This document shows, piece after piece, positions 1,785-32,415 of a DNA stretch of 64,000 nt (its first letter is position 1; each line of letters starts with the position of its first letter). Where the stretch lies: contig RPFO01000154.1 in the NCBI GenBank assembly GCA_009746045.1, forward strand, positions 7,738,693 to 7,802,692, in the 5' to 3' direction. Source of the stretch: Mesostigma viride. Its lineage: Eukaryota; Streptophyta; Mesostigmatophyceae; Mesostigmatales; Mesostigmataceae. A model generated the notes under the pieces. That model saw nothing but the letters and a program-made list of their open reading frames with translations, searched no databases and was not told the DNA's origin. The position numbers and the translations under genes were made by a program.

Positions 1785-2368
1785 TGTTACGTCCCTGCCC
1801 AGACACCCTAGCCTGAGCTACGTAGCGAAAGACCCTTCTTGCCGGAATTAGGAATAATTCAAGATAGCCTAAAGTAGGTTGCGCTTCACGACGTGAGTCG
1901 TGAGATATCTGGCATCACGGCTTGATGCCAAGCTAATTAGTACACACTTATATTGGCTAGCAATACCAATTACAAATGGATAATTGCCCCGGGCTCAATG
2001 TGTAGGCGTATTCGCACTTATCATTCATTAAACCAAGAGGACGAGACTCTCGTCCTCGGACCAATTTAACCTAGGTTGGTTGCGGCGCAGATACACGCCA
2101 ATTTCCCTAGAACAATCCGAGTCACTCATTCCACGTAGGATCCGGGCCGACATCGACCCTCAACTATAGGATCCACGCCTAGAACTACGGACGGACTCAG
2201 AACTGGCGCGGCGCCACGGCACCGGCCCCTAAAAGGACAACCTAGGACCAAAATAACTAGTCCAATTCACACAATAGCCAAGGTCCATAAAACCCAAGTC
2301 CAATAGACCAAACAGCCTTAGTAATTTATTCCATTGTTACGTCCGACCAAAAGGGCTGGGACGTAACA
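1785..2368 (-). repeat. 5' LTR of Gypsy-like element G1, 584 bp
   Basis: Begins tgttacgtccc and ends gggacgtaaca, a perfect 11-bp terminal inverted repeat with TG...CA ends. Its interior resembles the G2 LTRs (for example gcttcacgac, gtcgtgagatatctggca, cttgatgccaagctaatta). It interrupts the reverse transcriptase of copia-C: the copia reading frame is normal up to LPVYAS at 2369 and becomes LTR sequence beyond it. The expected TSD is gctag (2369-2373), but the other copy lies outside the window. Confidence 0.85.
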
Positions 2369-3428
2369 GCTAGCATACACAGGTAAATCATGCCACCTAC
2401 CCAGCAATAAACATGGGTCCACAGATGACACCTTCAACCCACAGTGCTTAGTCAAGAAGTCTTCCAAGGTGAGCCTCCAAATGATGGGACTGGACCTGAG
2501 ACCTTCTAGACCCTTCAGAATCAGCAGGTAGCTAGACTGGAGCTCTGCCTCCCAGGCTACAGGAACTGGCACATGAAATGGAGTAACTTTCACAATGCCA
2601 CACCTGCTGAGCCACACTGGGATCACCCTTCAGAAATGCTCTCTTGAAATCTAGCAGAACTGAAGACATATCAGCACCCTGGTTCAGCATACCGACATAC
2701 AGGCACAATAAAATACGCCATGTATCATGTAGCATCCCAGGTGTATACAACTCCTCGCCTAGAAGATCCCCGGTACCACGGTATTCATTAACAAGAACTG
2801 GACGCACATGGGGAATAGACACCCCCTCCACCTCCTTCCGCTTGATGACAAATCTGAGCTTCGACCGTGTACTGTATGGGGGAACTTCATTCACAGGCTG
2901 ACAGCAGTCAAACTGCAACCACTCCTCTAGAGCCTTGGCAAATGCTAGCCTCCAGGCTTCAAACATCAGAGGAGAACTCATTTCCTGGACAAGCTGATCA
3001 TAGCTAAGAGGAGAATGAGCAGCCAGTGATCTCTTAGTAATACCAATACTGCTAGGATGAAGAGCAGCTGGCATCACAAGACTGGAAGCCACAGGAATCT
3101 GATCCTCAGGCCACTGCACATTCTTGATCGCTTTCACAGAATTAAATACACTGGTAAGGGAGGTTTTGAAATTGACCAAGGGTATGCTACCCCAGCCAAA
3201 CTTTCTCAGCTTATCAGATGCCACAACAGTTCTAGGAGAGCTCAGAAAATTTTGACCCAAGATGATAGGGCCATCATAATCTTCAAGCACAAGAAATGTG
3301 ACATCCTCACCCATGAAGGGTACCAGCACCTCTCCCAATACCATAATGTGTGTCCTGCCACTAAAGTCAGGCACCCAAGCACAACTAGGCGAAAGCACCT
3401 GCCGTTGACCTGTATGTTGAGATCCCAT
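2369..3428 (-). pseudogene. Copia-C pol: end of aspartic protease plus first half of reverse transcriptase
   Basis: The frame starting at 3428 carries the second half of a retropepsin (ILGQNFL) followed by the reverse transcriptase fingers. It includes LLDFKRAFLKGD with the first catalytic Asp and the conserved YTPGMLHDTWRILLCLYVG block. A second frame (2626-2369) continues with LKGLEGLRSSPIIW and SSVDPCLL up to LPVYAS, where G1 is inserted just before the expected HGDD box. The change of frame near 2580 and the G1 insertion make it non-functional. Its closest relative here is copia-A pol (10626-14183). Confidence 0.8.
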
Positions 3429-4227
3429 AACAGAAACCTCAGCATTGGTATCTACCTCTACTGTAGGACAGCATCCTCGGACTCCTCCAACTGGCTGAGC
3501 TTGGACACCCGAGGTCCTTGCTTGGCTTTTTGCATAGCCAGCACCACATCTTTCAGGCCCACTCCTCTATGCTTAGTGAGGCTAGAGGAGACCACATCTG
3601 CCTGTCCTAAGGATGGAGAGTTAACCGATCCAGGGGTCTGGCCAGGACTTACCCGGGGATTACTTCCAGCTTGAACGTGATGATCAGGGATGACGTCATG
3701 ACCAACTGGCAAGGTTGTCACATCAGGAGATACTGCCTCTGCTTCAGCACCCCTTAGACGTACATATGACCACGACAGACGGTGCACATTCTGGGGAGGA
3801 TCCTCCATCTTCACCCAGCACTTGTGCCCAGCTAGTTCCACCCTGGTCACTACTCCAGGGTGCCAGCTACCACGCTTGCCTGCAAGCTTGGGCTCTTTCC
3901 ACACAATTTCCCTCTGGCCAACAACAGGTTTCAGAACACTCCAGCCCTTGTCTTTCTGCCTCAACTTGGCAAACTTGAAGATAAGGCTATCTTTCCAGGC
4001 TTGCTCAACCTCAGTAGGGAGCTCCCGAAGATGCAATGATAATGGAGTCACAGGGACCTCTCCAACATACATGGATGCCCTGACATTTAATCTGTCCTCA
4101 ACTGACCTCAACCAGGCCGTCTTGATAATAGCTGGAACCAATCTGGGAATCTTCTTCTCCGTCAGCAGAATAGTCTTGAGCTCTCTGATTGTCCTCTCCA
4201 CCACGCCTTGACTGCCATGGGACTCCC
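3429..4227 (-). pseudogene. Copia-C pol: integrase end, integrase C-terminal domain and protease start
   Basis: The minus-strand frame continues from SHGSQGVVERTI, which carries the catalytic Glu of the integrase core. It then gives a C-terminal SH3-like region (DKGWSVLKP, VVWKEP, GKRGSWHPGVVTRVE) and a linker. The protease active-site segment DTNAEVSV lies near 3445 in the frame leading into the next piece. The integrase therefore precedes the protease. A stop or frame change around 3458 separates the pieces. The upstream half is displaced by the solo LTR at 4228-5049. Confidence 0.75.
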
Positions 4228-5049
4228 TGTTAGGGATATTATATCCACCTGGCCACAATATATCCCAGCCTGATTTCTATCTTGTTGGATTTATTCCATA
4301 TGGACTGGGAATTTGATAGCTATGATAAGCTAGATGAATCGGGCTCAATGAGCTGATCAATATCCATGTGCCATAGTCCTATACTTGGACATGGATGACT
4401 TGTACCCTGAGTCAGCCTAGTAGCATCACGTATTTGATTGACAAGTGGTGCTATGGCCTATTGGACAAGTGTTTGGTCCATGAGCTGACAAGTGTTGGCA
4501 GCTCATGATGACACATGTTATGACTTACATGATGACAAGTGGGTAGACTCATTGCATGACACTTGTCACTCCAAGGAAAAGAGATGTGTCACTTTATTGA
4601 TTATGTTATGTGGCACATTATTATGTAGACACTTGGCATCTAGCTATTATGCCAGCTCTTTGGATCATGTCTAGAATGTTCTAGGAATGTTCTAAGAATA
4701 TGCCAGGAATATTCCTGGAATATACTGAGAATATGCTGGGAGTATGCTAGGAATATGCTAGGATGTTTCTACAAGCTTCTGTGATGATGTCATTGCTGAT
4801 GTCATCCTTCCTAGCCTAAAAGGTATAAAAGGAAACTGCCCCCTAAGGGCAGGTACCTCCATTTAACCTCTATTGTACCTCCATTCAAACTCTTTTCCTA
4901 ATCTCTAAGCCTATGAAATAAAACTCTTTTTCTGGTCTCTCTTCCATTGTCTTCAAGCTCAGTCTTTCATCACCTGCAAGGTGAAAGGGTAGCAAGGCCA
5001 AGCACAAGGCATTGTGTAAAACCCATTAGTTTCCTCTACTTTTCCAACA
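4228..5049 (+). mobile_element. Solo LTR of another family inside copia-C, 822 bp
   Basis: Starts tgttaggg and ends ttccaaca, flanked by the direct repeat ctccc at 4223-4227 and 5050-5054. Removing it and one ctccc restores alignment of copia-C integrase with copia-A. It contains ggtataaaagg near 4820 (TATA-like) and an aataaa near 4917 (polyadenylation-like), consistent with a plus-strand LTR. No internal region is present, so it is a recombined solo LTR. A 5'-truncated relative lies at 47808-48283. Confidence 0.9.
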
Positions 5050-5054
5050 CTCCC

Positions 5055-5711
5055 TGTGTACAACAAATAACTCAGGGAGGTCTTCATGCCCCATGCAGCA
5101 CTCAAATTCTAAATCACACTGCAGCTGGATCACTGGTTTCATTCTGCGGGTTTCATCCAGGATCTGATAGCCTGGAGCCCAGCCACCAAACATGGCTTAG
5201 ACTTGTCTTGCAACAGCTCCAGCACCTTGTACTTGGTGTATCTGTCAACACCAACCAACAAAATCAGTTTCCTGATTTCTTGGATATCACATTGTACATA
5301 TCCAGGCTGCAACACAGGTTGTCTGACATGAGACTTCTTAGGCTTGGGAGCAACCAGCCTACAGGAACAAGCCTCAGCAACCTGCTTTACTGCATTAAAC
5401 AAAGATGTCCCTCCCAGCCTCCTTGCAAACTGGAGTGCCTGGGCAGCATGACCAAACATGTGATGCAATCTCAATGCAATATTGGACACAATAGACATTT
5501 TATTAAATACAGGTGAGGTGCTTGGAACAGCACTCTCACTTACAACCAAGCTCCCCATTGCATCATTCAGGCCATCAGCCTCATCCTCCTCCTCTAAAGG
5601 AGCCTCCTGCCCTAAGGCAGGACTTCCACGCTCCAACATTGAAGGAGTACGCAAACTACCTCCAAGAGCCATGTGGGAACGTTGTTGCCTTGTGGTAACT
5701 GCTTTCACCAC
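5055..5711 (-). pseudogene. Copia-C pol: integrase zinc-binding domain and start of catalytic core
   Basis: A 190-residue frame with the integrase HHCC region (LHHMFGHAAQAL ... CSCRLV) and the first catalytic Asp segment (VQCDIQEIRKLILLVGVDRYTKYK). The frame ends around 5139 with a stop, although homology to copia-A continues to 5055, indicating a small indel. The second catalytic Asp region lies in that frameshifted stretch, and the Glu lies beyond the solo LTR. A short acidic linker with a repeated VESLP motif lies upstream at 5656-5898 in another frame. Confidence 0.8.
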
Positions 5712-6211: not shown

Positions 6212-6685
6212 AGTTAGATTGCGACGGGATATATTGCTTGAAGACACAGTGAATGCAATGAGCAGTGAATGCTTGGTTCATTAGAAAATAGGTTTACCCT
6301 TTATCAACGTTCCTCTCACCGGCTGCGCCGCCAGTGACCGTTGGGTGCAGACCGTTGGCCCGAGGCCACACGATGACAGGTAGCAGTCTAGTCACTGCAT
6401 CGTGCGATCACAGATCAATGCACGCTGCAGTACGGTCCCTATCTAGGATACTCTAGTACCGTCCAATGACAGGACACTACGTATACTGGGTACTGACATC
6501 TGTCACGTACCTCAGTACCCAAAGTACCTATCTAGGGAAACGTATGCGACTCGACTAGCATTCCTATCTGCATAGCCCACGTGGTATTTATATTCACATA
6601 CCAACGTAGGTTTACAAGGCTTATTCATACGTTGTATTCACAATGCCTTTGAGACTTAGTCTACAGCAAAGCATGGAGACTAACT
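6212..6685 (+). repeat. 5' LTR of copia-B
   Basis: 474 bp, starting agttagattg and ending gagactaact, matched by 22108-22581. Contains a tatttatatt promoter-like stretch near 6584 after a ccacgtgg motif. The termini are not TG...CA; the assignment rests on the matching pair and the gctgc TSD. Confidence 0.9.
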
Positions 6686-6906: not shown

Positions 6907-9178
6907 ATGGCTATCACGAACAAGAATGTCGCTAAGAAGCTTACCTACAACGAGGATGATGATGGGCAGGATAGGCGGATGCCCAAAGACAACAACCAGA
7001 AGCCGGCTGGCGATGCGGCCATTTCCAAGAAAAAGAAAAAGAACAAAAAGACTCACAATGTTTGCCAGGACGAGGGGACGGCGGCTGCAAAGCCGACCGA
7101 CCTACCCCCCTCCCCTGAGAAGCCGGAGGCCGAGACGGCTCCCCCCCGGGGGACCGGCTTACCCTCGACTCCGGCGGCTGCCCCAGCCGCAACCACGGCT
7201 GGAGCGGCCATGGCTGCGGAGCCCTCGGTGGTAAACCCCACTGAGGCTCCCCAGTTCGGCCCTCCGTTGCCAACTATTCGGGAGCTTCTGCCCCGTCAGA
7301 CGGCTTCGGTGGCGCCGGACGGGGCGATCACGTTTCGCCCCGCCACATCTGATATTCGTGTTCCCTTCGCTCAGGGACACAACCACATTGAGCTTCAGTT
7401 TGGGCGACCATCGTCCCTTCTTCGCAAGAAGAAGGACATGGAAAGCATTAAGCTCGCACGGGTGGTGCGTAAACCCGTGGAGCCCATCGGAGGACAACCA
7501 ATGTCCGACGATGAGGTCTCCGACACTGCCAGTCTCCCCGATGGGGAGACTGAGATCACTCTTACCCCAGCGCTCCTGGCGGTCGAGCAGGCCGCGCTGG
7601 TGGCTAATGAAGAACGCCGAGCGAGGCAGCGAGACCGGGAGGTCCGTCGAGAGGCGGCTTTTCGGCTCGCCGCTAAGCGGCAAGAATATGAGGAGGAGGC
7701 CGCCCGTCGTCTGGCCACCCACCAGGCGATGGCGGATGCGTACCGCGAGGCCACTCAGCGGCTACGCGACCTCCTCAAAAATGCTGACTATCCGATGGAC
7801 TATTCGGATGGTCAAGACCTGGCCGAGCTTGCTCGGTCAGCACATTTTAAAGCAATGTCCTCCATAACCCAAGCCAGGGTCACGGAGGCCATCTTGGCCA
7901 AGCATGGGGTGGTAGCTGAAGAAGCCCCCCCGCTGGAAACCACCAGCAAGAAACCCTCTCCTCCCCAACCCTTGCAGTACAAGGAGGGCCTGCTGGCCCT
8001 GGGCCCGAGGAAGGGCAAAGAGGCGGACTGTCCTGTCCGGCCTGCTATGATAATGGGAGACCCACTCCCTGACATTCCCGAGGATGAGGCTGCCTTTCAG
8101 GCGGCCCTCCGGGAGCATGAGGTACGCAAGGAGATGAAGCGTCTCATGCGGGAGGAGGCAGCGAGGAGAGCGGCGGCAGACACCCCTGCCCGCCCCTCCA
8201 CCGCTGGGGCTGGACCCAGTGGGGTTCCCCGGACCCCCCGGACTCCCCCGGGCCACCACGGCCCCCCCTCCCCCTCCCCCACCACCCCAGGTTCGCCCTG
8301 TGGGTTGGGGCCCCCTCCCCAACCAGGGGGGGTGGCCAGGACCCCAGGAGGCCCTGGGGGGAGGTCAAGAGGTGCCTAGGGCACCCACCCAACCTGCTGA
8401 GGCCCCCCCAAGGACGGGGGATATCCAGGAACAGCTCGCCATTCTCCAGGCTCAGCTGGCCTCGTTGCAAGACCAGCAGTTAACAGCTAACCAGCTGCAA
8501 ACTGTCGAGGGCCTGCGCGCCCTGATGTCGCGGTATGAGCGGGGGACCATCAACCTGGACCCCACCCGCCTGCAACAAGCAACCGACGTCTTCTTGAGGG
8601 CCAACCCCCCTCTCACAGGTGTGTTTAACCCTCATAAAAAGGAATCCAAAATCAATATTGCTGGCTTGCCTGAGGGTCACACTGTTGAACAAGCTAAACA
8701 ATTTGTCTTTGCTCTGGAGTATGGGATGGAAGGCCTCAACCTTAGACATCAGTTTAAGGCTCTCAGGGCCTCATCCACATTCCATCAATCATCTCCTGCA
8801 ATTAGAGCATTGATTCAAACCTATCAGGAACGCACCCTGACACCTGAAGCAGCCATTGAACAGTGGCCTACCTTTATCACTGATCTGAAACAGCTAGTGC
8901 TTACCAATAACCACATGGAAGCAGTAGAACGTTTCAATTGGCTTGCTGCATATAAGGTGAACAAGAATAACCTTTCTGGGGATGCAAAAACATACAGGGT
9001 AATGATAGAGAAAGACCTTGAGCTTCTCAAGCTCCAACCAAGGTATCTCATCCACACCTGGCTAACAAAAGCTAATTTGCAACCTTCTGTCCTGGCTACC
9101 CTGCTTACAGGCCTCAAGTCCCTCTGGGACAACTTCAGAGCTGCCATGCTCTATATCGAGGAGGCAGTGGACCCCCTG
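6907..9178 (+). pseudogene. gag: Copia-B Gag, N-terminal and capsid region (frameshifted)
   Basis: Starts at ATG 6907 in a good initiation context (taccatggc). The first 490 residues include a Lys-rich N terminus, a charged predicted coiled coil (about residues 215-330, rich in EERRARQRDREVRREAA-like sequence) and a Pro-rich stretch. The frame is lost in a C-run region around 8258-8300. The capsid-like part continues in a second frame (8219-9178) with FPGLPEGHT-type and AYKVNKNN blocks shared with copia-E Gag. It is cut by copia-A at 9178/9179 and resumes in frame at 17995. The frameshift could be mutation; nothing shows it is programmed. Confidence 0.8.
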
Positions 9179-9877
9179 AGTTAAACTTTCTTAGCACACG
9201 CAATGTGAAGGATATGGTTGCAATGCAGCAATGTGTGAATATGGTTGGAAACGGAGCTTTGTTAAATCGGATAATGTTTACAGCGCTCACACACTTGAGG
9301 CTTGTACACGCGCTTGCCAAGTCAAGGCACAACACGTGAGGCGGGCTCGCAAGAGATGCCCATTTGGCACTGGCCTATTGTTTATATACTTGTGCACTGT
9401 GCTTGCTAGTCCTGAGCAGCCTAGGAGGCCTGCTCAGTAATAACACCCCCGGTACAGTATTCACTACCTGTACAGCGCCCAGTTCCTATACAGTAGGTCT
9501 GCCATACAGGCACAGTGACCACAGAGTACAGTCACCACAGTGATTATTGCATCTGCACCTAGAAGTCCAGGACTAAGCCTGCGGTACCAACAGACCACAG
9601 GTTAAGGTTCCTATTTCCTGCGTACGACGTATTAATCCAATACCGTCGTAGGTACAGCACCTAATTCCTGTCAGCCCAGGAATTACTGTCGACCCCATAT
9701 GTCGTCGGCAAATATTCACGTCCGACTTAGAAGAACAGCCGGCTCGCGCTCGCGCGCGACCGGGAAGTCGGAACGCCATAACTTTCTTGATACTTGTCGG
9801 AATGAACTCGTTCCGGTGCCGCTGGAATCGCAGAGATATGCCGAATCAGGATCACGCCAATGCGCTTGGCGTTAACT
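9179..9877 (-). repeat. 3' LTR of copia-A
   Basis: Begins agttaaac and ends gcgttaact on the plus strand. Contains gtatataaac on the minus strand near 9379-9389, a candidate TATA box. Matched by 17291-17989. Confidence 0.92.
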
Positions 9878-10625: not shown

Positions 10626-13600
10626 TTAGACAGATAGACCGACTTGACAGTCAGCATTCATGAGCTTCCTCAGTACATTGTACTGGGCTGGGGCCTTGTG
10701 TGGCAGCTTTGTCAATGCATCAGCAGGGTTCTCCTCGCCAGGGATATGCTTCAAGTCAACCAAACTGGCCAACTCCTTCAGCAACAAATAATCCAGGTCC
10801 CGGCTCCTGGCCAGCTGCTTGTGAACAAACTGGACCATACCCATGCTGTCTGTTAGCAACAACGTCTCCATCTGCAAGGTCCAAGGGGTAACTGAAGCCA
10901 GCTCCAGCATTAACTCCTTTATGTACAGGCTGGACTGGATCCCCTCGCATATGGCCCTGCATTCTGCCACATCTGAACTGATACAGACCCTCTTCTGCAG
11001 TCTGCTGTACCAGCTGAACAAACTTGCCCTGCTCTGATAAAAAGCAAACAGAGCAGCAGATCTCCCCCTGACCTTGGTAACCTGGCGAGCATCCATGGAA
11101 CTGTCAACAAAGATCTCCAAGGTGATAGGCTGGGTAAAGTCAATCCCAGACAAAATCAGATCAGGGGTACTCTCCACCAACCGGGCTATGACTCGAGGCT
11201 TCTCATCCTCAAGCACCTCATCAGGCATTCTGCTATGGACCATCAAAGACGGACCACAGATGCTGGCAAACCAGGCCCACATGCCTCTCAACTCAGGTCC
11301 TGCAGCCTGGGTGATCTTCTCTGGCAAGGCCTTCACAATGGTCTGTTTATAATCTCCTCCAGCCTGAAGCCTGATACTCCACTCCCCGTCCCTCCTGAAC
11401 AGGGTAGCCTGCATTCCACAGAACACTACAGGCTTGTTGGGCTCCTGCCACAGCTCCTTGCCCAGTGAAAACTTGCCACTGATGACAGGAATAAACTTCT
11501 TCAGCCAGGTCGTGGGGGCTAGCAAATGCAGATCATCTCCATGCAAACTAGCATACACTGGCAGACCCTCCCATTGGGCCAGCAGCAAACAGGGATCAAC
11601 TGAAGACACTCTCAAGCCACACTCACTGATCAGAGCTTCCTGCAGCGTGAGTCTCCAGATGATTGGGCTCGACCTGAGTCCTTCCAGGCCCTTCAGAATA
11701 ACCAGGAATTGTTGATGCAGCTCCAGCTTCCAGATGGCAGGCACCTCAACACAGTAAGGCTCATCCTGCTTCCACACCCTCCTGGCCACTTCTGGATCAG
11801 ATTTTAAAAATGCCCTCTTGAAGTCCAGCAGCACTGATGACATAGCTGCTCCCCTGTTCAGCAACCCCACGTAGAGACATAGCAAAATTCTCCATGTGTC
11901 GTGTAGCATCCCTGGCGTGTATAGCTCCTCTCCTGGCAGACTCCCCGTGCCGTGATACTCATTCAGGACAGGCCTGACATGGGGCACTGATACCTCATCC
12001 ACAACCTTCCTCTTCAGCACAAATCTCAAAGCAAGCTTCCTTGATGCTGGGGGACGTCTGTCTGTTGGTGCAGCACACTCAAACTGCAACCACTCCTCCA
12101 ATGCCTTGGAGAAGGCGAGCTTCCAAGCCTCAAACAAAGTAGGCGAGCTCATCTCTTGGACCAGCTGGTCATATGTCAAAGGAGAGTGTGCAGCAAGGCT
12201 CCTGTGAGTTATGCCAATACTGCTGGGGTGCAACACAGCTGGAATCACCAAACTGGCCGCTGGGGGCACCTCCCCTTCATCCCATTTTACACCCTTGACC
12301 GGCTTGGCCCTGCACCTGACTGGAAATGTTGTCCTGAAATTTTCTAGGGGAATCATCCCCCAGCCATCTCTTCTCAGAGCTGTAGCTCTGATAGAAATCC
12401 CAGGATTGCCCAGAAAATTCTGACCCAAAATCACAGGGCCATCATAGTCCTCTAGGACAAGGAAGGTCACATCCACACCCATGACAGGGGCAGTAACCTC
12501 TCCCAACACCCTTAGATGCGTCCTACCACTGAAATCAGACACCCAGGGGCAACTTGGTTCTCCGACCAGCAGTTCTCCTGTATGCTGAGGTCCCATGACA
12601 GAAACCTGTGCATTGGTATCTATCTCCATGGCAGCTACCTCAGGTTCATCCAACTGGACAAGCTTGGACACCTTAGGCTCCTTCTTGGCTCTTTGCAAAG
12701 CCTGTACAATATCTGATAGACGCACACCCCTAGGCCTGGTGTCGGGCCGTTCCGGAGGTGCAGCCTGTCCGCCTGCTTGCCCAACCACCGTATGTGAAGG
12801 TACCCCAGGGGCCGGGCCAGGGTCACCCTGAGGGCTCGATACAGCTGTAGCACCCTGATCAGGAAGCTCCACGTCACCCCCGCCTTGTACACCAGCGGGC
12901 ACCTGGAAGAGGTCTCCTTGATTACCTCCCCGGGGACGGATCTTTGACCAGGACAGACGGTGCACTGCTTGGGAGCCATCAATGGCCACCCAGCACTTAT
13001 GGCCAGCGGCTTCTACTCGGGTCACCACCCCATCATGCCAGCTGCCACGTTTCCCTGGAAAGCTTGGTTCCTTCCACACAACAACCTGTTGTCCAACGTT
13101 AGGTTCTAGGACACTCCAGCCCTTGTCTTTCTGCCTCAGCTTGAGGAACTTGGCCTCTAGCTTCTCCTTCCATGCCTGCTCAGCATCAGCTGGCAGCATC
13201 CTGGTATGCAGCATAAGAGGATTGATGGCAATGTCACCAAAGAACATGGGAGTCCTCAGGTTCAGCCTGTCCTCCACAGAACGTAGCCATGCAGATGTCA
13301 CAATGGCAGATGACGTCCTTGGAATCCTCTCCACCAGCAGCACAGTCTTGATCTCTTGGATGGCTCTCTCCACCACCCCTTGCTGGCCGTGGCTCTCCCT
13401 GGGTGTAATCAGCAACTCTGGAAACTCTGGCAGGTTCTCACAGCACTCAAACTGAATGTCACACTGCAACAACTCCAACCCAGGGTACCTGCTCCTTGTC
13501 AACTTCAGAGCAGCAATCAATGTAGGCTTCTCCATGTCAGGCAGGATCTCTAGGGTCTTGTACTTGGTATATCTGTCCACTGCCACCAGCAGCTTCAAAC

Positions 13601-14183
13601 CCCTGATTCTCTGAATATCTACCTGCACATGGCCTGGCTGCAAAATAGGAGTCCTGGCATGAGACTGCTTGGGCTTTCTAGCAACTAGCCTGCACTTGCA
13701 AGCTTGAGCAACCTGTTGGCAGATGGAGTACAACTCACTTCCTCCCAGCCGTCTAGCAACTTGCAAAGACTGAGCTGCATGGCCAAACATGGTATGCAAC
13801 CTTGAGGCAATGTCATACAAGAGAGAAAACCTTTTATTGTCATTATTAGCACTCAAGGTATGTACAGATCCCTTATGTACAGGAGGCACCAGGGTCGTGC
13901 CTGTCAGACTGTCTCCAGCCCTATCCTCATCCTGACCATCCTGTGCCAGTCCTGCACGGTCAGAATGCTTCTGAGATCCACCTGGGTCCACATCACCAGG
14001 TCCTACCTCAGGCTCAGCACCGCCATGGCGGGCACGTTGGCGAGTAACCACTGCAGCTACAGCTGGCATACTCTCTGTGGTAACCAAGCTTGCCCCATCG
14101 TGTCCAATAGGCTCTTTCACTAGAGCATGGGGCTGCCCCTCACTGCTGTCACTAGCAGCTTCATTACACACCCCTGGGGGCAC
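10626..14183 (-). CDS. pol: Copia-A Pol: integrase, aspartic protease, reverse transcriptase, RNase H
   Basis: An open frame of 1185 residues that would copy and integrate the element. Approximate domain order: integrase zinc domain (LHTMFGHAAQ..CKCRLV, 129-162); integrase core with Asp near 190 (VDIQRI) and 241 (CDIQF) and Glu near 272 (GVVERAI); SH3-like integrase end (WKEPSFPGKRGSWHDGVV, about 350); protease loop DTNAQVSV near 520 and ILGQNFL near 586; RT with LLDFKRAFL near 784 and HGDDLHL near 882; RNase H with VDSSMDA, AECRA, TDSMG and ENPADALTK (1025-1155). The protease lies after the integrase, contrary to the usual copia order. The listed start is a GTG; the frame is open upstream to the TGA at 14217-14219, so translation more likely comes from Gag by readthrough. 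Confidence 0.92.
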   Translation of the reverse strand: MPPGVCNEAASDSSEGQPHALVKEPIGHDGASLVTTESMPAVAAVVTRQRARHGGAEPEVGPGDVDPGGSQKHSDRAGLAQDGQDEDRAGDSLTGTTLVPPVHKGSVHTLSANNDNKRFSLLYDIASRLHTMFGHAAQSLQVARRLGGSELYSICQQVAQACKCRLVARKPKQSHARTPILQPGHVQVDIQRIRGLKLLVAVDRYTKYKTLEILPDMEKPTLIAALKLTRSRYPGLELLQCDIQFECCENLPEFPELLITPRESHGQQGVVERAIQEIKTVLLVERIPRTSSAIVTSAWLRSVEDRLNLRTPMFFGDIAINPLMLHTRMLPADAEQAWKEKLEAKFLKLRQKDKGWSVLEPNVGQQVVVWKEPSFPGKRGSWHDGVVTRVEAAGHKCWVAIDGSQAVHRLSWSKIRPRGGNQGDLFQVPAGVQGGGDVELPDQGATAVSSPQGDPGPAPGVPSHTVVGQAGGQAAPPERPDTRPRGVRLSDIVQALQRAKKEPKVSKLVQLDEPEVAAMEIDTNAQVSVMGPQHTGELLVGEPSCPWVSDFSGRTHLRVLGEVTAPVMGVDVTFLVLEDYDGPVILGQNFLGNPGISIRATALRRDGWGMIPLENFRTTFPVRCRAKPVKGVKWDEGEVPPAASLVIPAVLHPSSIGITHRSLAAHSPLTYDQLVQEMSSPTLFEAWKLAFSKALEEWLQFECAAPTDRRPPASRKLALRFVLKRKVVDEVSVPHVRPVLNEYHGTGSLPGEELYTPGMLHDTWRILLCLYVGLLNRGAAMSSVLLDFKRAFLKSDPEVARRVWKQDEPYCVEVPAIWKLELHQQFLVILKGLEGLRSSPIIWRLTLQEALISECGLRVSSVDPCLLLAQWEGLPVYASLHGDDLHLLAPTTWLKKFIPVISGKFSLGKELWQEPNKPVVFCGMQATLFRRDGEWSIRLQAGGDYKQTIVKALPEKITQAAGPELRGMWAWFASICGPSLMVHSRMPDEVLEDEKPRVIARLVESTPDLILSGIDFTQPITLEIFVDSSMDARQVTKVRGRSAALFAFYQSRASLFSWYSRLQKRVCISSDVAECRAICEGIQSSLYIKELMLELASVTPWTLQMETLLLTDSMGMVQFVHKQLARSRDLDYLLLKELASLVDLKHIPGEENPADALTKLPHKAPAQYNVLRKLMNADCQVGLSV

Positions 14184-14216: not shown

Positions 14217-15403
14217 TCAATGATCAGCAGCCTTGCCCTTGCCCTTGTCCTGGGATGGACCAGCCTTGTCCTTGCTGCCACCCTGAGCTGGCTTGCTCTG
14301 ACCTTCCTGCCTCAGGTACGAGGGACACTCATTCCTGAAGTGACCCTTCCCCTGGCAGAAATAACATTCCACCTGACTGATGTCCCGTGAGGTCCCACTG
14401 CTGGGCCCAGCCTTGGGAGGACCACCCACCCTCTTGAAGTCAAACTGGGACTGTGGATGTCCCGACTTCGGCGGGGTCCCCCGTCCAGCCCTTCTGTCAC
14501 GCCCCCTCCTGGACCTTCCTCGACCCCTTGAAGAGGTCTCAGGCCCTCTCGAGGCGCTGGGCCCCCGTGGCCCGATCCCCTCATGGACTTAACCGTGGGT
14601 TCAGTGGCCTCCTCATCACCCTGACGAGGGCGCTTACCACCCACGTACTTGCCGCTGAAACACTCATACAACTGGTCCGTCATGGCTGCCCAGCCATGGA
14701 CCTGTCGCATGTGGATGGTCACATTATCCATGGTGACCGGATCCAGCTGCAGCGACTTGAGAAAGTCGCCCATGGCCATCCGATCTGCGACGAAGAAGCC
14801 CTTGGCCATGGCGTCCTCCCTCAGCTTGACGAAGTCTTCAAAGGCGTGGACCACTAGTTGCCCCTTGATGGGCTTGTAGTCCAGGTATTCTTGCTTCAGG
14901 TGGGACCCATCTATGGTCCTCTTGTCACTCAGGAACGACCTGAGTCGCGTCATAAACGCCGTCCAGGTGTCCCCCGCCGCGTGTCGCTCCCGAACAAACT
15001 TGAACAGCCGCCTCGCCGACTGCCGTATGTAGGCACTAGACGCCAGGATGCGAAGCTTGTCACCGTTGTATATCTCCGTGTACAAGTTCATGTCCTCTAA
15101 CATCCTCTCAGCATCCCGGGGCTGCCAATTGTCCTTGATGGACTGAAACTGGCCTAGCACCGCGTACCCCTCAGCAACAGTTGGTCGCTTAGGCGCCGCT
15201 TGATCTGCGGCTGGCGCGTGCTGCCCGCCCTGCGATCCTTGGCTCTGATTATCTGGCACCTCAGCCTGGTCTCCCAGCGCCTGGCCGTCCCCGCGTCCAT
15301 CGCGTCCACCGCGTCCATCGCGTCCATCTCGTCCATCCATCCCAGCGCCGCGCCGTCCGAAGCCCATAAAGCCCGCTGGTTGGTTGATAGCTCCATCCTC
15401 CAT
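14217..15403 (-). CDS. gag: Copia-A Gag (capsid-like region and CCHC zinc knuckle, in two frames)
   Basis: Structural protein of the virus-like particle. Begins at ATG 15403, just before a DGRDGRGG repeat. It has a capsid-like helical region (GYAVLGQFQSIKDNW ... GKYVGGK, about residues 75-280) shared with copia-C Gag. The first frame runs to 14312, but the zinc knuckle CYFCQGKGHFRNEC is in another frame (14429-14217), so a shift between about 14560 and 14430 separates them. The knuckle frame ends at TGA 14217-14219, followed by CTT, and is in frame with pol. Whether the first shift is a mutation or programmed cannot be decided. Confidence 0.82.
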
Positions 15404-16085: not shown

Positions 16086-16099
16086 GGTGCACAGGTTTT

Positions 16100-17290: not shown

Positions 17291-17989
17291 AGTTAAACTT
17301 TCTTAGCACACGCAATGTGAAGGATATGGTTGCAATGCAGCAATGTGTGAATATGGTTGGAAACGGAGCTTTGTTAAATCGGATAATGTTTACAGCGCTC
17401 ACACACTTGAGGCTTGTACACGCGCTTGCCAAGTCAAGGCACAACACGTGAGGCGGGCTCGCAAGAGATGCCCATTTGGCACTGGCCTATTGTTTATATA
17501 CTTGTGCACTGTGCTTGCTAGTCCTGAGCAGCCTAGGAGGCCTGCTCAGTAATAACACCCCCGGTACAGTATTCACTACCTGTACAGCGCCCAGTTCCTA
17601 TACAGTAGGTCTGCCATACAGGCACAGTGACCACAGAGTACAGTCACCACAGTGATTATTGCATCTGCACCTAGAAGTCCAGGACTAAGCCTGCGGTACC
17701 AACAGACCACAGGTTAAGGTTCCTATTTCCTGCGTACGACGTATTAATCCAATACCGTCGTAGGTACAGCACCTAATTCCTGTCAGCCCAGGAATTACTG
17801 TCGACCCCATATGTCGTCGGCAAATATTCACGTCCGACTTAGAAGAACAGCCGGCTCGCGCTCGCGCGCGACCGGGAAGTCGGAACGCCATAACTTTCTT
17901 GATACTTGTCGGAATGAACTCGTTCCGGTGCCGCTGGAATCGCAGAGATATGCCGAATCAGGATCACGCCAATGCGCTTGGCGTTAACT
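17291..17989 (-). repeat. 5' LTR of copia-A
   Basis: 699 bp, apparently identical to 9179-9877. Followed on the right by the TSD ccctg and the resumption of copia-B gag. Confidence 0.92.
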
Positions 17990-17994
17990 CCCTG

Positions 17995-18332: not shown

Positions 18333-19410
18333 CCAACCTGGAAACCCTGGCCCACGGTGCCTGAGGTGCTTCCAGAGGGGGCATGACAGGAACCACTGCC
18401 CCAACAACGACTCCCTGGACACCAACGTGGATCTCTGCCCGGGTTGCTGGCACGCACGTCATCCCCTGGGACCTCCAGGCAGCCGGTGCAACAGGACTCG
18501 CTACCAAAAACAATGTGAGTTCTCTCACCTTGCTTACTCTGAGGATGATGATCTCATTACCATTGGGGATGGCAGCCAGGGCATAATTGATTTTGAGGCA
18601 GCAACCTTACTGTCCTCCCAACACCCTGTACTGGAACCTTACATAAAAGCACTAACCCCTACTGTTGACAACTCCATAGATATCAAGGAGCTTGCTCATC
18701 AGCTGCACCTAGCCATGGGTCATGAAACAGTGGCTGAGGAACTGGCCAGACGGCTGGGGGGTAGTAGCATGGGAAAACAACTCAGGAATGCAGTAAAACT
18801 GGCTAGACAACACTGTCAAGAATGTCAGTTCAATAGCCCCAAACCTCAAAAATGGCATACTGCAACTCCTTCCACCACTAGGGGCATGATAGTGGGGGAT
18901 GTGATGCACATCAACAAAGATGTCCAACCCTACCTGATCCTAAAAGACTCATGGTCCAGGTTCACAGTAATGGAACCCCTACCTGGCATGTCTGCAGGGC
19001 AGCTACGTGTTGCACTCATGATTGCTTTACCCAGATTCTACCCAGTTGACAGAATTTTGCTTGATCAACAATTTTCTTGTCTGACTGACCTGGAAGGGTG
19101 TGAAGCAATAGAGATTGCTGGGCTGGAAGATCATGAGGGTCAGGGGGTCATTGAAAGAACCATCAGATCTGTCAAAACCCTACTAGCCAAAAATCCTTCC
19201 AAGGATGCTACTTCAGGGGTCTATTGTGACAGGGCACTCTGGTGTCATGAAATGTGCACAACCCTAAACATGAGACCTGTCTTACATGCCCAGTGGGGTG
19301 AAGTAATCCCAGCAGGCCTGCAGGCAGGTGTATATCCCCCAGAGGTGATAGCACTGTACAACACTGCACGTGCACAAAGTTACCTCAGCAAAACTGGCAG
19401 AAAAAGATAA
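17995..19410 (+). pseudogene. Copia-B Gag end, zinc knuckle and integrase
   Basis: In frame with copia-B gag when copia-A is disregarded. An Asn/Gln-rich stretch encoded by aac repeats (18170-18330) leads to the knuckle CLRCFQRGHDRNHC. A second Cys/His motif follows, CPGCWHARHP with a later Cys. The integrase zinc domain comes next (LHLAMGHETV ... HCQEC), then the core with VGDVMHI, LLDQQF and GVIERTIR. There are 29 residues between the second Asp and the Glu. Gag and integrase are in one frame with no protease between them. The frame is lost near 19390. Confidence 0.85.
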
Positions 19411-20383
19411 AACCCATTCCAGGCCAGTATTCCAAAAAGGTGATCAAGTTCTCTACTACAATGAAAACAGCTTTGGTAAGGTTGGAACTTGGCTAGGTCC
19501 AGTTACCATCCGTGGATTTACCAAAAACAGCAAGACCGTGGAGGTCAAGCACAATATCAATGGGAAGCGTCACAGGGTGAGCTGTCATAGAATTAAGAAG
19601 TATTATTCTCCCATGGCAGACGTGCCTGGGGAAGAGTCTTTAAGCATGGACTCACTACTTCTATCTGGCAACTCCAGCATGCCCAGCAGTAGCCCTGAGC
19701 CACCAATTACTGCTGTTGACAGCACCACAACACCCTCTGTGAACCCTTCCACCCTCAGTGAAGCCAGGCCCACTTCACAACCTGGGGATTGCTTAACCAG
19801 GCACGAGGTAGCTGGGTTGGAAGCATTAGCTCAGCCCCAAGGCACGAACCTGTCTGCCAAACCTCCCGCTCTGAGGTCCAAATTGGCAGTCGCCTTGCAA
19901 GCACTACACAGGTCACATAAGCAACAAGCTGCTGTGGCCGCAGGGTTGGCAAAAGTCTCAGCTGTGTGCACTAGTCAGGACCCCTGGACCCTGGCAATAG
20001 ACACTCAGGCACAGGTCAGTGTGATCAGTGCACAAGCCATCCCTGGTCTTGAGATTGCACCTTCATTTTGGGCACGGGTGCAGGATTTCTCAGGCCAAAG
20101 CTCACTGGATGTAGTGGGACAAGTGATGCTCCCTATACTTGGTATTCAGACACCCTTCCAGGTGGTGGAGGGGTACTCTGGTAACACCTTGTTGGGGGAA
20201 CCTTTTGTATCCTATCCTGGGGTGCTTATCTCAGCTAATGAGCTCAGTGTCACAGGGGTGGGTGCAGTTCCTCTGGACCACTTTAAAATCCCTCTCTCCA
20301 GTATTGTCCCTGGTATGGATGCTGTCATCAAGGCAGTCAACACTCAGTATGCACCAGGGGAGATCCCTGATTGGACAAGTTAG
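19385..20383 (+). pseudogene. Copia-B integrase C-terminal domain and aspartic protease
   Basis: Second frame of copia-B pol. It starts with an SH3-like integrase end (VFQKGDQVLYY, TWLGPVTIRGF, HRVSCHRIKKYY). After a Ser/Pro/Thr-rich linker comes a retropepsin-like domain with DTQAQVSVISA around 20000 and the second hydrophobic-Gly motif TLLGEPF near 20190. Gln replaces the Gly of the usual D-[S/T]-G motif. The frame stops at 20383. Confidence 0.8.
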
Positions 20384-21497
20384 TGCACAGCCAGTTCCTC
20401 CATCCCTCAGCCTTTGGGCTGGGCAAGTGGGACATAGCCATGCACTCACCCCACCAAATCTCCCACGTCATACAAGAGTGCAAAACACAAAAAGGGTTTA
20501 CTAAGTGGCTGATGGCCATTGTCCACCAAGCCAGGCAGGAATGGGTCCTGCCCAACCCCAAAAACCCTCAATACAAACCTCCTGTCACCCCTTCATGGGA
20601 CGTGCCAGAGGGAGCCAAAAAGCTCAGATTAAAATTTGTTCTCAAACAAAAACCACAAAAAGTGGGCTCCCCAATCTTCCATGCCAGACCATGTGTCACA
20701 GAATTAAAGGGGACATCCACACTGCCAAAAGGGGAAACCTACACACCTGGGCTGCAACAAACCTCACTCAGGATCATGCTCTCCCTATTCCTCCACAACC
20801 TCAATGCAGGCCAAGACTATGTCTGCAAAGCAACTGACATTAAAAGGGCCTTCCTCAGGGGGGACCCAGAAAAGGCTGAATCTGTGTGGAAAGGGAAGGT
20901 GTACGTGGTAGACACCCCAGCTGTGTGGAAACCTTATATTGATGAGCCCCACCTTATTATCAACTTGTCAGTGCCCCAAAAATTTTCAGAGACTCAGCAG
21001 AGGAAGTATTCAAAAAGCTCAAGGCCACGTATGATGACCTGGACCCATGCTTTTTTGTTGTACCCACCCCCTCTGGACTGCTGTTCTTTGTGTGGCATGG
21101 AGATGACCAACTCCTTTGTGGGCCTAGAGCTGAGGTGGAAAAATTTATTCAGCAGGTCCAGGAATCATATGAGATTGGCAAACAGGTGGAATTGAGCACA
21201 ACCCCCATCCAGTTCTGTGGCATCATGTTGCAGCTGCACAGGCAGCCAGATCAATGGGCCTGCTCTCTCTCTCCTCCTGCAGAATATATTCAAGATTGTC
21301 TAGATCTGCTGCATCACACCTGCCTCCCCTTACACATGTGTGCCACTGTTCAGGGCAAACTGGGGTGGTGGTCAGCCATCTGTGGGGCTCCCTTAGCTGT
21401 CATCAGCAGGGTCACCCATGATGTTCTAGTCAAAATCAAATGCAGTCACATCAGGAAGTTGATCCATGACTGCCCCCCCTCATCCTCCATGGCCTGA
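20371..21497 (+). pseudogene. Copia-B reverse transcriptase (two frames)
   Basis: RT region after the protease. The first frame (20371 to about 20990) has LRLKFVLKQK, YTPGLQQTSLRIMLSL and TDIKRAFLRGD with the first catalytic Asp. A shift near 20990 moves to a frame (to 21497) with FVWHGDDQLL, the catalytic DD box, and PIQFCGIMLQLH. The fingers-palm connection between them is shorter than in copia-A. The shifts make it inactive. Confidence 0.8.
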
Positions 21498-21502
21498 ATC
21501 TG

Positions 21503-22027
21503 ATGGAAGACATCCACATACACAGTGTCATGGACAGCTCCATGGAGAGCAGAACAATCAATCAGATGGGGGCACGGGAATCAGGGCTGTTTTTTCTCAC
21601 CAACAGGTCAGATTACATGTCCCTCACTTCCTGGTACAGCAGGCTACACCGCAGAAAACCTGGCAGCAGCAACTCAGCTGAATGTCGTGCTGTGGTGTCT
21701 GCTGCATTGCATGCTCGTTCCCTGCAGCACATGCTCACCTGGCTACAAACCCAGGCAGGCAGCACATGCAATGTCATCTCACATCTCTATACTGACAGCT
21801 ATTCTGTGATCAGTTTTCTAACCAAGAAATCTGTTTCTACTGCTGTCCACACTGACCTGGATTGGGTGATCCTCAAACAGGAGGCAACCTACTTCTCCAG
21901 CTGGCATCATGTGGAAGATGAAGAAAACCCAGCCGATGCCTTAACCAAGCTGAGGGATGCAGCTGGCCCACAGTACCAGCTACTCTTTGAGAATATGAAT
22001 CCATATGGTATCCGTGTCAGTGTTTGA
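21503..22027 (+). pseudogene. Copia-B RNase H
   Basis: C-terminal pol domain in a third frame. MDSSMESRT carries the first Asp, SAECRAVV the Glu, YTDSYSVI the second Asp, and ENPADALTKL the end block typical of copia RNase H. It ends 80 bp before the 3' LTR. Confidence 0.82.
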
Positions 22028-22107: not shown

Positions 22108-22581
22108 AGTTAGATTGCGACGGGATATATTGCTTGAAGACACAGTGAATGCAATGAGCAGTGAATGCTTGGTTCATTAGAAAATAGGTTTACCCTTTAT
22201 CAACGTTCCTCTCACCGGCTGCGCCGCCAGTGACCGTTGGGTGCAGACCGTTGGCCCGAGGCCACACGATGACAGGTAGCAGTCTAGTCACTGCATCGTG
22301 CGATCACAGATCAATGCACGCTGCAGTACGGTCCCTATCTAGGATACTCTAGTACCGTCCAATGACAGGACACTACGTATACTGGGTACTGACATCTGTC
22401 ACGTACCTCAGTACCCAAAGTACCTATCTAGGGAAACGTATGCGACTCGACTAGCATTCCTATCTGCATAGCCCACGTGGTATTTATATTCACATACCAA
22501 CGTAGGTTTACAAGGCTTATTCATACGTTGTATTCACAATGCCTTTGAGACTTAGTCTACAGCAAAGCATGGAGACTAACT
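22108..22581 (+). repeat. 3' LTR of copia-B
   Basis: 474 bp matching 6212-6685. Followed by the TSD gctgc (22582-22586). No purine-rich tract precedes it (the upstream sequence is gcgccataaaattca), unlike copia-A and D. Confidence 0.9.
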
Positions 22582-24153: not shown

Positions 24154-24772
24154 AGTTAAAGAAACTGCGGCTGAACTGTGGTTCAGCCTGCACTGATTAA
24201 TATCTACAGAGGAAGTAGTTATATTAATCAATAGGTTTACGTTGCTGGTTATGGATACCAGCACAGAATGCACGAGGCACGCGAGAACCGTCGCCAAAGG
24301 TGCGAGGATACAGGTGCAGGGAAAGTGGTGCTACCAAGTGGCAGCGCCCTGCTCGTTATATACTAATTGTGACGCAGTCACATCCAGATGACTGATAGGA
24401 CAGATCATCTCACAATATTGCTGTCCTTCACTCTGGACCAGCAGATCTCGACTCGTTATCCATCATCAATGTCCTGTCGCACAAGTCCTGTCACTATTTG
24501 TTACGTCTAATCAATAGCATTGAATAGACCGCAGTGTCGGAGACTAAATGTCCTATCGTACACTGTGACAAGACGTCGTATGCCACGCGTCACTTGAAGA
24601 ACCACCGTGGAATCACCGAATCCAAGTAAAATGTAGTAGAACAGTATCTTGCTCATATCTCGAGCAATACTCATCAGAATGAACCCGTTTCTGGATTGTA
24701 GTAACCGGAAGTAGAATCTCTACAAACCAAGTAGCTTAGTAGAATAATATTGCTTGCCAGGCAATATTAACT
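24154..24772 (-). repeat. 5' LTR of copia-C
   Basis: 619 bp, beginning agttaaag and ending attaact, the termini of the other copia-like LTRs here. Left and right neighbours fit: pre-gag ORF on one side, interrupted copia-E pol on the other. Its partner is off the left edge, so the boundaries rest on the termini and on where copia-E homology resumes. Confidence 0.75.
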
Positions 24773-26816
24773 CTGGGAGGTACTTGGGCTTAACTGCATG
24801 GATAGCAGCATCCAACCCAGTGCTAATCTGGCTCAAAGGGATTTTAAAATGATCTAGAGGTACCTGTCCTACCCCTGCCACACTCAACCTCCCAGCTGAG
24901 ATGACAACACCAGGGTAAGATACAAAAGGTTCCCCTAACAGGGCATTCCCTGAGTGACCCTCTACCACCTGAAATGGAGTGGGCATACCCAAGATTTGAA
25001 TGCTCACCTGACCTTTGACCTGAATTTTTGTTTTGCCTGAAAAATCTGACACTCTAGCCCATGGTGAGGCCTTCATTTTCAGACCAGATACAGCTGCTGC
25101 ACTGATGATACTCACCTGTGCTTGGGTGTCAACAGCCAAAATGCTAGGATCTTGACCTGAATCCCCTACAGCGTTTACCTGTGCTGTACCTGTTGCCACA
25201 ACTGCTTTAGTGCTGTGTGCCTTGTGCAAGGCCTTAAGAATCTCAGCAAATGACTTCCTGGGAACGACAGGATCTGCTCTCTCTTGTGACTCCTCCAGGT
25301 GTGAGGGAGGGGCTGCCTGCTGCTCACCCTGTGCACCTTCCTCCTGCCCAGGTGGACTATTGGGTTGTAGTGTGGCTGCACTACTGAGGAATACAGGAGC
25401 TTCTACTGTGGTACTAGTGCTTGCATCAATGACGTCCCTAGCCAATTCATTGGGTGAGATCAATCCACCAGACTCCTGCTCTGAATCCATGTCCAAGAAT
25501 TCTACCCCTGACACGTCTGCCAGTGGTGGGTAATAAAGCTTGAGTCTATGCTTGCTGACCACACGCTCTCTGTCATGTTGTATAGTGACTGCAGTCCCTT
25601 CTTCATGAATCTTAGTGACTACAGCTGGACCGTGCCATCTGGCAGAGTGTGCTCTTCCTCTATCACCCTCTCTGAAAAACAACACATGGTCCCCCACTTC
25701 AAACACAGGCCTGGCATTATTTTTGTCTTTCTTTGCCAGCAACTTGGCTAAGTGCTGCCTTTGTGTGTTGTAGTGAGTGTGCACCTCTGAAGCATAGCTG
25801 CCTGACTGAAGGCCAGTTGGGGTAATTTCCCCAAAAGGTGAGGACATTATTGGTTTGGCGTTTAGCTGGGTAGTCACCCCTGCTGCCCAAGATGCCCTGT
25901 CAGCATAGCTACCAGAGTCAGCCAACCTGGATGGCATTTTTCTTATCACATCCCTGATGGCTCTCATGGTACGTTCTACCAACCCCTGACGTTCATGATC
26001 TTGAGCCCCAGACACTTCTATCTTGGGCAGATCATTCCTGTCCTGAATGCAGAGGAACTGCTGATCCAGCATTACCTTTTCAATGGGGTGAAAACGTGCC
26101 AAGGCTATCTGTAAAGCTCTGTGCAGCTGCTCTTTATCCATTCCAGGCAGAGGCTCCACTACCACAAACCTTGACCAGGCATCCTTTATGACTAGGTAGT
26201 ATACCGTGTCCTTAACCACGTGTATAACATCCCCAACCAGTTTGCCTCTAGCCAGTGGTGGTGTGGCCACATGCCATTTCCTGGGTTTAGGAGCGTATAG
26301 CTGACATTGCTCACAGTGCTTACGTACGTGCCTGCGCATCTGTTCCAGATCATGGCCTTGTATTTTATTGGCTAGCCTTTCAGCCACAGCCTCATGGCCC
26401 ATAACCTTGTGCAGTTGCTCTGCTAGAGCACCATACGTGATTACCTTTTCTGCTGCTGCACTGAGAGAAGCTATGGTGGGGTCACAAAGCATGTGTGACA
26501 GTGTCATATCATATGCCACATCCCAATCCACATCCTCACACTCAGGCAACACTTGGCAGATAGAAGGTAGCAGGTAACCATTTGTGAAAAATGGTGAGGG
26601 TAGCTTACAGGACTCTCCCTGGTCTGCTGCCCCCGCGCGGTTGTAGCGCCCCGGCGTGGTCTTGTTATGCCTTGGAGCGGTGCACCGCGCTCCTGCTGCA
26701 ATGGGGTGACGTGTTTTCCAACAACCAGGACAAACATCCACGTCCGAGCCATAATCAGGTTTGCCTTTCCAGCAATCATCCTTTAAGTGCCCCTTACAAA
26801 GGCACCTATAACACAA
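24773..26816 (-). CDS. pol: Copia-E Pol fragment: zinc knuckles, integrase, aspartic protease
   Basis: An open frame of about 680 residues ending at the copia-C insertion. Order: knuckle CYRCLCKGHLKDDC; second Cys/His motif CPGCWKTRHP; integrase zinc domain (LHKVMGHEAV ... HCEQC); core with VGDVIHV, MLDQQF and GLVERTMR (29 residues between Asp and Glu); SH3-like end (GDHVLFFREG, RWHGPAVVTKI); linker; protease loop DTQAQVSIIS and second motif ALLGEPF. The integrase precedes the protease, as in copia-A, B and D. The upstream gag frame ends at 26933, so the gag-pol join is broken here or needs a shift. RT is missing only because of the copia-C insertion. Confidence 0.88.
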
Positions 26817-28131: not shown

Positions 28132-28780
28132 AGTTAGCATTTTGGGCAACCAATATGCTAAGTGGATGCAGTTTGGAAAGACCTTTCCAACGCCGTGCTG
28201 ACCGCCTGAAACAGACAAGGGACGAGAAAGATATGAGGTCCCGAAGTCCTAGCCGTCCGTGGCCGACTAGGGTGCAGTCCTCTGGTATAGTGGACAGGAC
28301 ACGTGGCAGGCCGTGCCTGCACAGGCTTAGCCTGACTATCACGTGACTGTGGTCCACGTAGACCAGGAGGAGCAGCAGCCTGTGACTGGTGGAATACTGG
28401 AGCTGGCACAGGACTGCAAGGATACTAGGCCTTGCAGGCTTGTGACAGGTCCTGTACTTCCTAGGTTGCAGAGTCTAGGCAAATCCAGTTCGTCCTGGCT
28501 CTGCACTGATGCCAGTGGACGTTGAGGATTTGCTTGCACGCCTGCACGTGCCTCGTCACGCCGATGGGAACGAGGAACAACGCAAAGGATATAGCTTGGT
28601 CATGGGGGATGACCAGCTATCTTGGCAAGCACGAACCGAGGCTCCCACATTGGACGTGGAAACGCTCACCGTGGTCGTGGCTTGGTGCACGGGTTAAAAG
28701 GTTGCTGCCTTGCAACTTTGGCTCATCCCGTTGTGCGCGTGAAAGACCAGGAGCTCACAGCTCTGGCTTGGTTGCTAACT
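28132..28780 (+). repeat. 5' LTR of copia-D
   Basis: 649 bp beginning agttagcatt and ending gttgctaact. Its first 90 bases also read as the start of an artificial fused ORF with copia-E gag on the minus strand, which should be ignored. Confidence 0.92.
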
Positions 28781-31362: not shown

Positions 31363-32415
31363 CTACATCATCCCCTGTAAATAGTCAATCACCCCTTGGG
31401 GAAGGTGTGCTGGATGTACATAAGGATGGGGGTGTGCCCCTTGTGCAGCACCAAGGGTGTAAAGATGTTGTTCTTCCACTGGATTGCAATAACAATGCTG
31501 CAGCTGAATTCCCTATGCCTCATGCAGGTGGTGGGTCTCCAGCAGGTGCTGGCCTGGAGGGCCAAGGGACCTTGCTGGAAGGGCCTGGAGCGGTCCAGGG
31601 TGCAGGGCCTGGCTTGGGGCGTCAGGATGGCCTGCAGGGAAGCCCTGGAACCTCAGGAGTGGATCATGTGTCCCCACACACGGTTCAGACGTCTCGCCAG
31701 GTCAGTACTGACAGAGTGCTGAGCTATGCTGAGGCTGGCCATAGTTGCATCACATGTTTGGGCATTCTGGGCAGGCAGCAATGTTTGCTTGGAAGCTAGG
31801 TAGGGAGCCTTTGTGGGAGGCATGCCAGGCTGCTGCTGAGAACTGTGGTTGCCAGGAGAATGCTGTTCACCCACCTCAGTCCCATGCTAGGGAGCCTGCT
31901 AGGGAGCGTGGCGACATCCAGATGGATATCCAGCATATCAGGGGCTTGTATATATTGGTGGGGTGGACAGGTTCAGCAGATACAGGCTGATAGACGTTCT
32001 GCCTGGTATGCAGGAGCACCACTTGTTGTTGGGTATGAAGGCCCTGATCCCAGGCTTTGGGGTGTGCAAGAGTGTGCAGGCAGACTTGCAGTTTGACTGT
32101 TTGCTCAAGCATCAGGACCAGCTGCCTTGTAAGCTGGTAGTAGTCCCCAGGGAGAGTCATGGGCAGCAAGGGGCTGTAGAGAGATCCATACGTGAAGTGA
32201 AGACAGTGGTGCTAGCAGCAGAGTCAGTGCCACTTGTGGCATCTGCCTTAGAGAGGGCAGCCTGGTGTAAGGGGATAGAAGAGCAGCTGAACCACAGGGT
32301 TAACTATTACTTTGATGGTGTGGCTGTCTCTCCCCTGGCCCTGCAGTATAGCTTGTTACCTGAGAACGTGGTGCAGGCCAGTCTTAGGAAGGCAGATAGG
32401 TTTTTGCCCAGCTGA
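31359..32415 (+). pseudogene. Copia-D integrase
   Basis: Three frames. A linker runs from 31359. The zinc domain starts at about 31745 (MHHMFGHSGQAAM ... CGCQ), followed by the first Asp (IQMDIQHIRGLYILV). From 31963 MDRFSRYRLIDV leads to VQADLQFDC and GAVERSIREVKT with the catalytic Asp and Glu, 31 residues between them. Frame changes at about 31760, 31965 and 32410 make it inactive. Confidence 0.8.

Follow-up and report, generated by a model that had tools for sequence, protein, structure and literature searches.

Domain order in Pol

Can the Pol of a long terminal repeat (LTR) retrotransposon carry its integrase (IN) upstream of its aspartic protease (PR)? The question is raised by a 64,000-nucleotide stretch of the Mesostigma viride genome (contig RPFO01000154.1, positions 7,738,693 to 7,802,692; hereafter the window), for which an initial annotation reported this arrangement in five copia-like elements, here named A to E. 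The pol of element A is a single open reading frame (ORF) of 1185 aa (14183..10626, minus strand). Profiles built from elements A–E themselves were used to search the window in all six frames. The matches were colinear in elements A, B, and D, with IN followed by PR and by reverse transcriptase (RT). The order was the same in element C, where the integrase is interrupted and RT is cut short. In element E, integrase is followed by PR; no RT was found there by the profile search of the window, and the element ends past the protease. The domains are as follows.

12927..13841, minus strand: element A integrase, HX4H/Cys N-terminal domain (NTD; motif only), D-D-E core and SH3-like C-terminal domain (CTD), pol residues about 115-419 (profile match 13847-13110)
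12276..12668, minus strand: element A retropepsin, D522-T-N-A-Q ... I-L-G-Q (profile and fold searches)
11238..12230, minus strand: element A RT, copia type, HGDD for YVDD (profile, hhalign)
10629..11165, minus strand: element A RNase H, ends in ADALTK (translation, alignment to the copia protein P0002)
18655..19407, plus strand: element B integrase (profile)
19967..20359, plus strand: element B retropepsin, DTQAQ ... LLGE (profile)
20401..21398, plus strand: element B RT, in more than one frame (profile)
21473..22000, plus strand: element B RNase H (translation)
3935..5507, minus strand: element C integrase, interrupted (profile)
3102..3467, minus strand: element C retropepsin, DTNAE ... ILGQ (profile)
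2363..3059, minus strand: element C RT, cut short (profile)
31745..32382, plus strand: element D integrase, two frames (profile)
32886..33272, plus strand: element D retropepsin, DTNSQ ... ILGQ (profile)
33336..34325, plus strand: element D RT (profile; RVT_2 E 5.7e-5)
34328..34906, plus strand: element D RNase H (tblastn)
25710..26459, minus strand: element E integrase (profile; rve E 2.6e-5)
24771..25175, minus strand: element E retropepsin, DTQAQ ... LLGE (profile)

At E <= 1 the PR profile matched the window five times, once per element and each time downstream of IN. RNase H (RH) was located after RT in elements A, B, and D. Frameshifts are present in B, C, and D. The order and coordinates given in the initial annotation agree with this map in all five elements. 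Since the profiles derive from the same elements, they chart domain order and are no proof of domain identity, for which the evidence comes from Pfam, PDB and fold searches.

A protein search covering 5.8 billion proteins, in which about 8,000 word-sharing candidates were scored per search, returned a single close relative among the candidates scored; more relatives may exist. This protein, P0001, is a 1214-aa pol encoded on a 6,224-base ENA contig and is 66% identical to element A pol. It displays the same order in one ORF: rve (214-265), gag-asp_proteas (557-628), and RVT_2 (751-923), all matching below the Pfam cut-offs. The element A ORF, scanned whole, had no match to any of these three models at E <= 5. 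Searches of the window by tblastn with A pol and with P0001 produced the same domain map. PDB sequence searches gave no match with the whole A pol or the RT profile, and two weak unrelated matches with the PR profile. Scans of IMG/VR with P0001 and with RT, IN and PR patterns revealed no relative. The protein search also yielded a canonical copia protein, P0002 (E 1.9e-4), whose order is the usual one (Pol_BBD, gag_pre-integrs, SH3, chromo, RVT_2) and which doubles as a control. Its chromodomain (875-922) lies between integrase and RT, a position reported for CoDi-A elements in the available text of PMC2774666.

The Pol order integrase–retropepsin–RT–RNase H is confirmed as real and conserved, and it is common to two diverged branches of the elements. 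It differs from the PR-IN-RT-RH order of copia, the PR-RT-RH-IN order of gypsy, and the PR-IN-RT order, with a gypsy RT, of the Gmr1 clade. We consider it highly probable that these are LTR retrotransposons with this Pol order and a putatively active protease. Computation supports the domain order, the folds of integrase core, CTD and protease, the copia-type RT and RNase H, the LTRs with 5-bp target duplications, and recent insertion, to which the fully identical LTRs of A and B point.

Protease segment

The DTNAQ...ILGQ segment of element A, proposed earlier as the protease, does model as a retropepsin. All 50 matches listed by Foldseek for this model, and all 50 rows listed by VIA, were retropepsin-like, with middling scores (no Foldseek E below 1e-3; middling Z in VIA). 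Retropepsins normally retain the glycine of D-T/S-G. This canonical catalytic motif is absent here, D-T-N or D-T-Q standing in its place in 6/6 copies. All six copies have ILG or LLG and lack the copia-type LLS motif. According to the accessible part of PMC2774666, copia proteases have LLS and the others mostly ILG; copia proteases are given with DSGA or DTGC in the portion of PMC3587641 available to us. The Pol_BBD model did not match any of six members, nor did hhalign align the segment with the P0002 protease, and the absence of so weak a match proves little.

The lost glycine is what would be seen if the retropepsin-fold segment were a dead relic or spacer, with Pol either cut by a host protease or left unprocessed and the IN-PR order being a fossil. 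We regard this as unlikely: the Asp and Thr do not vary, the ILG/LLG loop is retained, the ratio of non-synonymous to synonymous substitutions (dN/dS) is 0.17-0.47 in four pairs, and window profiles and Pfam revealed no other candidate protease in elements A–E.

As had been claimed, no retropepsin was found between zinc knuckle and integrase by the window profile search and a motif scan of that interval with the pattern D[ST][GNQ][ASTV]. The distance from zinc knuckle to HX4H motif is 102 residues in B and 120 in E, and residues 1-117 of A pol have a predicted local distance difference test (pLDDT) score under 50 in the AlphaFold2 (AF2) model. Two candidate sites were rejected as chance occurrences: DTNV just past the B knuckle, which lies in a Cys/His cluster and is not conserved in E, and DSGS in E, which lies past the D-D-E motif of the integrase.

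Integrase, reverse transcriptase and RNase H

Both the D-D-E catalytic core and the SH3-like CTD, features of DDE integrases, are present and match retroviral integrases. The whole-pol AF2 model of element A (8 sequences) was useful over these two parts only. A zinc-binding NTD is suggested by the HX4H/Cys motif, invariant in four of four integrases aligned. The hhalign match of P0002 to the integrase was weak (12%, E 0.0025) and brought the His, Cys, and D-D-E positions into register. Among six CTD pieces, three gave matches, solely to weak Agenet/Tudor/chromo-type models, and NCBIfam returned nothing for the integrase beyond weak IS481 transposase matches. By eye, the CTD of B and E contains W-x-G-P, which resembles the GPY/F motif; according to the available text of PMC2774666, Ty1/copia integrases lack the GPY/F module.

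RVT_2, the copia RT model, matched three of four members (best E 1.3e-5; element A itself was missed) and was the sole RT model with a match. P0002 was aligned by hhalign with RT (97%, E 3e-11) and with RNase H (probability 61%, E 8e-5); no Pfam match was obtained for RNase H. A, B, D, and P0001 carry HGDD at the RT active site, where copia usually has YVDD. The designation 'copia-like' in the initial annotation holds for RT and RNase H and fails for the protease motif and the LTR ends.

The ILG-type protease and the W-x-G-P motif would also fit a gypsy-type element with permuted order, whose RT merely resembles that of copia. With RVT_2 as the only matching RT model, and with RT and RNase H (ending in ADALTK) alignable to canonical copia, such an origin is quite improbable.

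LTRs, target sites and nesting

Paired LTRs flanked by exact 5-bp target-site duplications (TSDs), typical of LTR retrotransposons, were detected for elements A, B, and D, and were not found for C and E. The Gag zinc knuckle, integrase, RT, and RNase H expected of LTR retrotransposons are present as well.

9179..9877, minus strand: element A 3' LTR, 699 bp, plus strand AGTTAAAC...CGTTAACT; 100% identical to 17291-17989
17291..17989, minus strand: element A 5' LTR, 699 bp; 100% identical to the 3' LTR
9174..9178 and 17990-17994, no strand: element A TSD CCCTG; the empty site leaves the B gag frame open
6212..6685, plus strand: element B 5' LTR, 474 bp, TSD GCTGC; 100% identical to 22108-22581
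22108..22581, plus strand: element B 3' LTR, 474 bp; 100% identical to the 5' LTR
28132..28780, plus strand: element D 5' LTR, TSD ATTTG; LTR pair 99.4% identical
35936..36588, plus strand: element D 3' LTR; LTR pair 99.4% identical

The identity of the LTRs, complete in A and B and 99.4% in D, indicates recent insertion. In all three elements the LTRs end in AGTTA...TAACT and lack copia-type TG...CA ends. The latter are usual for LTR elements (PMC12440569, available part), and AG...CT is absent from the LTR_retriever terminal-motif list as quoted in the accessible text of PMC8220671. No TGG-starting primer-binding site was seen by eye beside the 5' LTRs (A 17250-17290, B 6686-6725, D 28781-28815), and tRNA and Rfam scans were empty.

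The region 2363-25175 is a nest, with A inside B and B inside C, marked by exact 5-bp duplications and an open frame across the empty sites. We suspect that C is in turn inserted in E, at the point where E breaks off. Heavy nesting, together with the broken state of B, C, D, and E, brings up an ordinary copia element scrambled by local rearrangement or nesting. This is extremely unlikely. The element A ORF runs without a break from integrase through RNase H, and nesting therefore cannot explain the order. Moreover, the order recurs in P0001, a single ORF from a different contig, it is shared by both diverged branches, and the two TSD-traced insertions fall in gag and not between IN and PR.

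Besides these elements, the window contains a gypsy-like element F (38079-44352) with TG...CA LTRs (99.3% identical) and the TSD ACTAG; its gag ORF is long, and a full pol would not fit. A long minisatellite in an 8-bp register (49355-52200) is adjoined by CAG-type polyglutamine repeats at about 52200-52900.

Gag and the gag-pol junctions

The junctions between gag and pol differ among the elements.

14312..15403, minus strand: element A gag ORF, 363 aa (ORF list; by-eye likeness to a gag piece at ~23.0-22.6 kb, minus strand)
14325..14366, minus strand: element A zinc knuckle CX2CX4HX4C, in a frame other than that of the gag ORF (translations)
14217..14219, minus strand: in-frame stop TGA (CAT TGA CTT) between the A knuckle and pol, same frame (translations)
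18358..18399, plus strand: element B zinc knuckle, sharing an ORF with integrase, 102 residues before HX4H (motif scan)
26772..26813, minus strand: element E zinc knuckle, sharing an ORF with integrase and protease (motif scan)
31356..31358, plus strand: stop TGA (CAG TGA CTA GCT) closing the D zinc-knuckle ORF (translations)

The gag ORF of element A had no Pfam match. Element A had been called intact; this is true of its pol and not of the gag side, where gag ORF and zinc knuckle occupy different frames. In B (18400-18490) and E (26676-26771) the zinc knuckle is followed by a further Cys/His cluster, CPGCW...RHP...C. Between its 5' LTR and gag, in the leader, element A holds an 881-bp near-perfect palindromic array (15762-16642) of three repeats at 337-338 bp spacing.

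In A, and perhaps in D, Gag-Pol would be made by UGA readthrough; in B and E, an in-frame fusion would yield it. We take the contexts TGA CTT (A) and TGA CTA (D) to resemble known leaky stops. Several observations weigh against readthrough: the D frame stays open past the knuckle TGA with the D integrase in other frames, folding downstream of the TGA is no better than in shuffles, and element C carries TAA. In the particle, the protease would dimerise while flanked by integrase and RT and then excise itself. The long low-confidence linker from integrase CTD to protease (A pol residues ~420-515) is the likely site of integrase release. No Gag-PR product could be formed without integrase, unlike in elements with the protease first in Pol. 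Insertion by the integrase would follow, with cDNA ending in AG...CT joined to target DNA at a 5-bp stagger.

Comparison with known groups

The available text of PMC2774666 distinguishes five states of the integrase: it may follow PR (as in all known copia and in Gmr1), follow RH, be reversed and truncated (REM1), be lost, or precede gag (Petunia vein clearing virus, PVCV). None of the five places it between gag and PR. Likewise, no IN-before-PR order is described for the LTR groups named in the accessible part of PMC12440569 (2025). Both agree with the earlier statement that no named group has this order. Full-text literature searches, with Repbase, GyDB and subscription papers outside their range, gave no report of Gag-IN-PR-RT-RH. 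The order is new as far as our literature search reached, and its carriers are copia-related LTR retrotransposons. They are filed as copia-related; order, protease motif, and LTR ends all depart from Pseudoviridae, to which they are therefore not assigned.

With Ty1/copia (e.g. P0002) the elements share the RVT_2-type RT, copia-type RNase H, integrase upstream of RT, the 5-bp TSD, and the CX2CX4HX4C knuckle. They differ in having IN before PR and an ILG/LLG protease, whereas Ty1/copia, in the source texts available, has PR before IN and LLS, and also in D-T-N/Q, AG...CT LTR ends, and HGDD. In the Gmr1 clade of Ty3/gypsy, also composed of LTR elements, integrase likewise precedes RT (PMC3587641, PMC8220671), but the clade is classed as gypsy and keeps PR upstream of IN (PMC2774666), as stated in the parts of these sources at hand. 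Ty3/gypsy, BEL/Pao, Troyka, and retroviruses resemble the elements in having PR directly followed by RT-RH and an ILG-type PR; the IN-PR-RT-RH order is a circular permutation of their PR-RT-RH-IN. In contrast, their integrase is C-terminal and their RT is not of copia type. PVCV (Caulimoviridae) is a pararetrovirus without LTRs. It is the nearest exception, with integrase upstream of protease, but there the integrase precedes gag and does not lie between gag and PR (PMC2774666, available part).

We suggest tentatively, as a possibility somewhat short of even, that the elements form a separate LTR lineage of family rank with a mosaic Pol, combining copia-type RT-RNase H, an ILG-type retropepsin, and a gypsy/retrovirus-like integrase C-terminus, the integrase recognising AG...CT cDNA ends. 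PyRE10G of Porphyra is reportedly, by the title of Peddigari's 2008 paper, a copia-like element with a gypsy-like integrase. It is described as GalEa-like in the accessible text of PMC3587641. If such a mosaic lineage exists, its order would be a circular permutation of the gypsy/BEL/retroviral one, a single domain move from both known plans, and might represent either an intermediate stage of the integrase move that gave rise to the copia plan or a second, independent move of this kind.

Where integrase stands with respect to protease and RT is a classic character splitting the great LTR groups. Our data suggest one rearrangement of the standard LTR-element blueprint beyond those recorded. 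An apparently recently mobile IN-PR-RT-RH element would show that Pol tolerates another order, and order alone would then be a weaker guide to ancestry. Annotation pipelines that rely on domain order for classification could overlook these elements or misfile them. Such an element would also provide a natural setting for testing how a retropepsin releases itself from a folded integrase on its N-terminal side.
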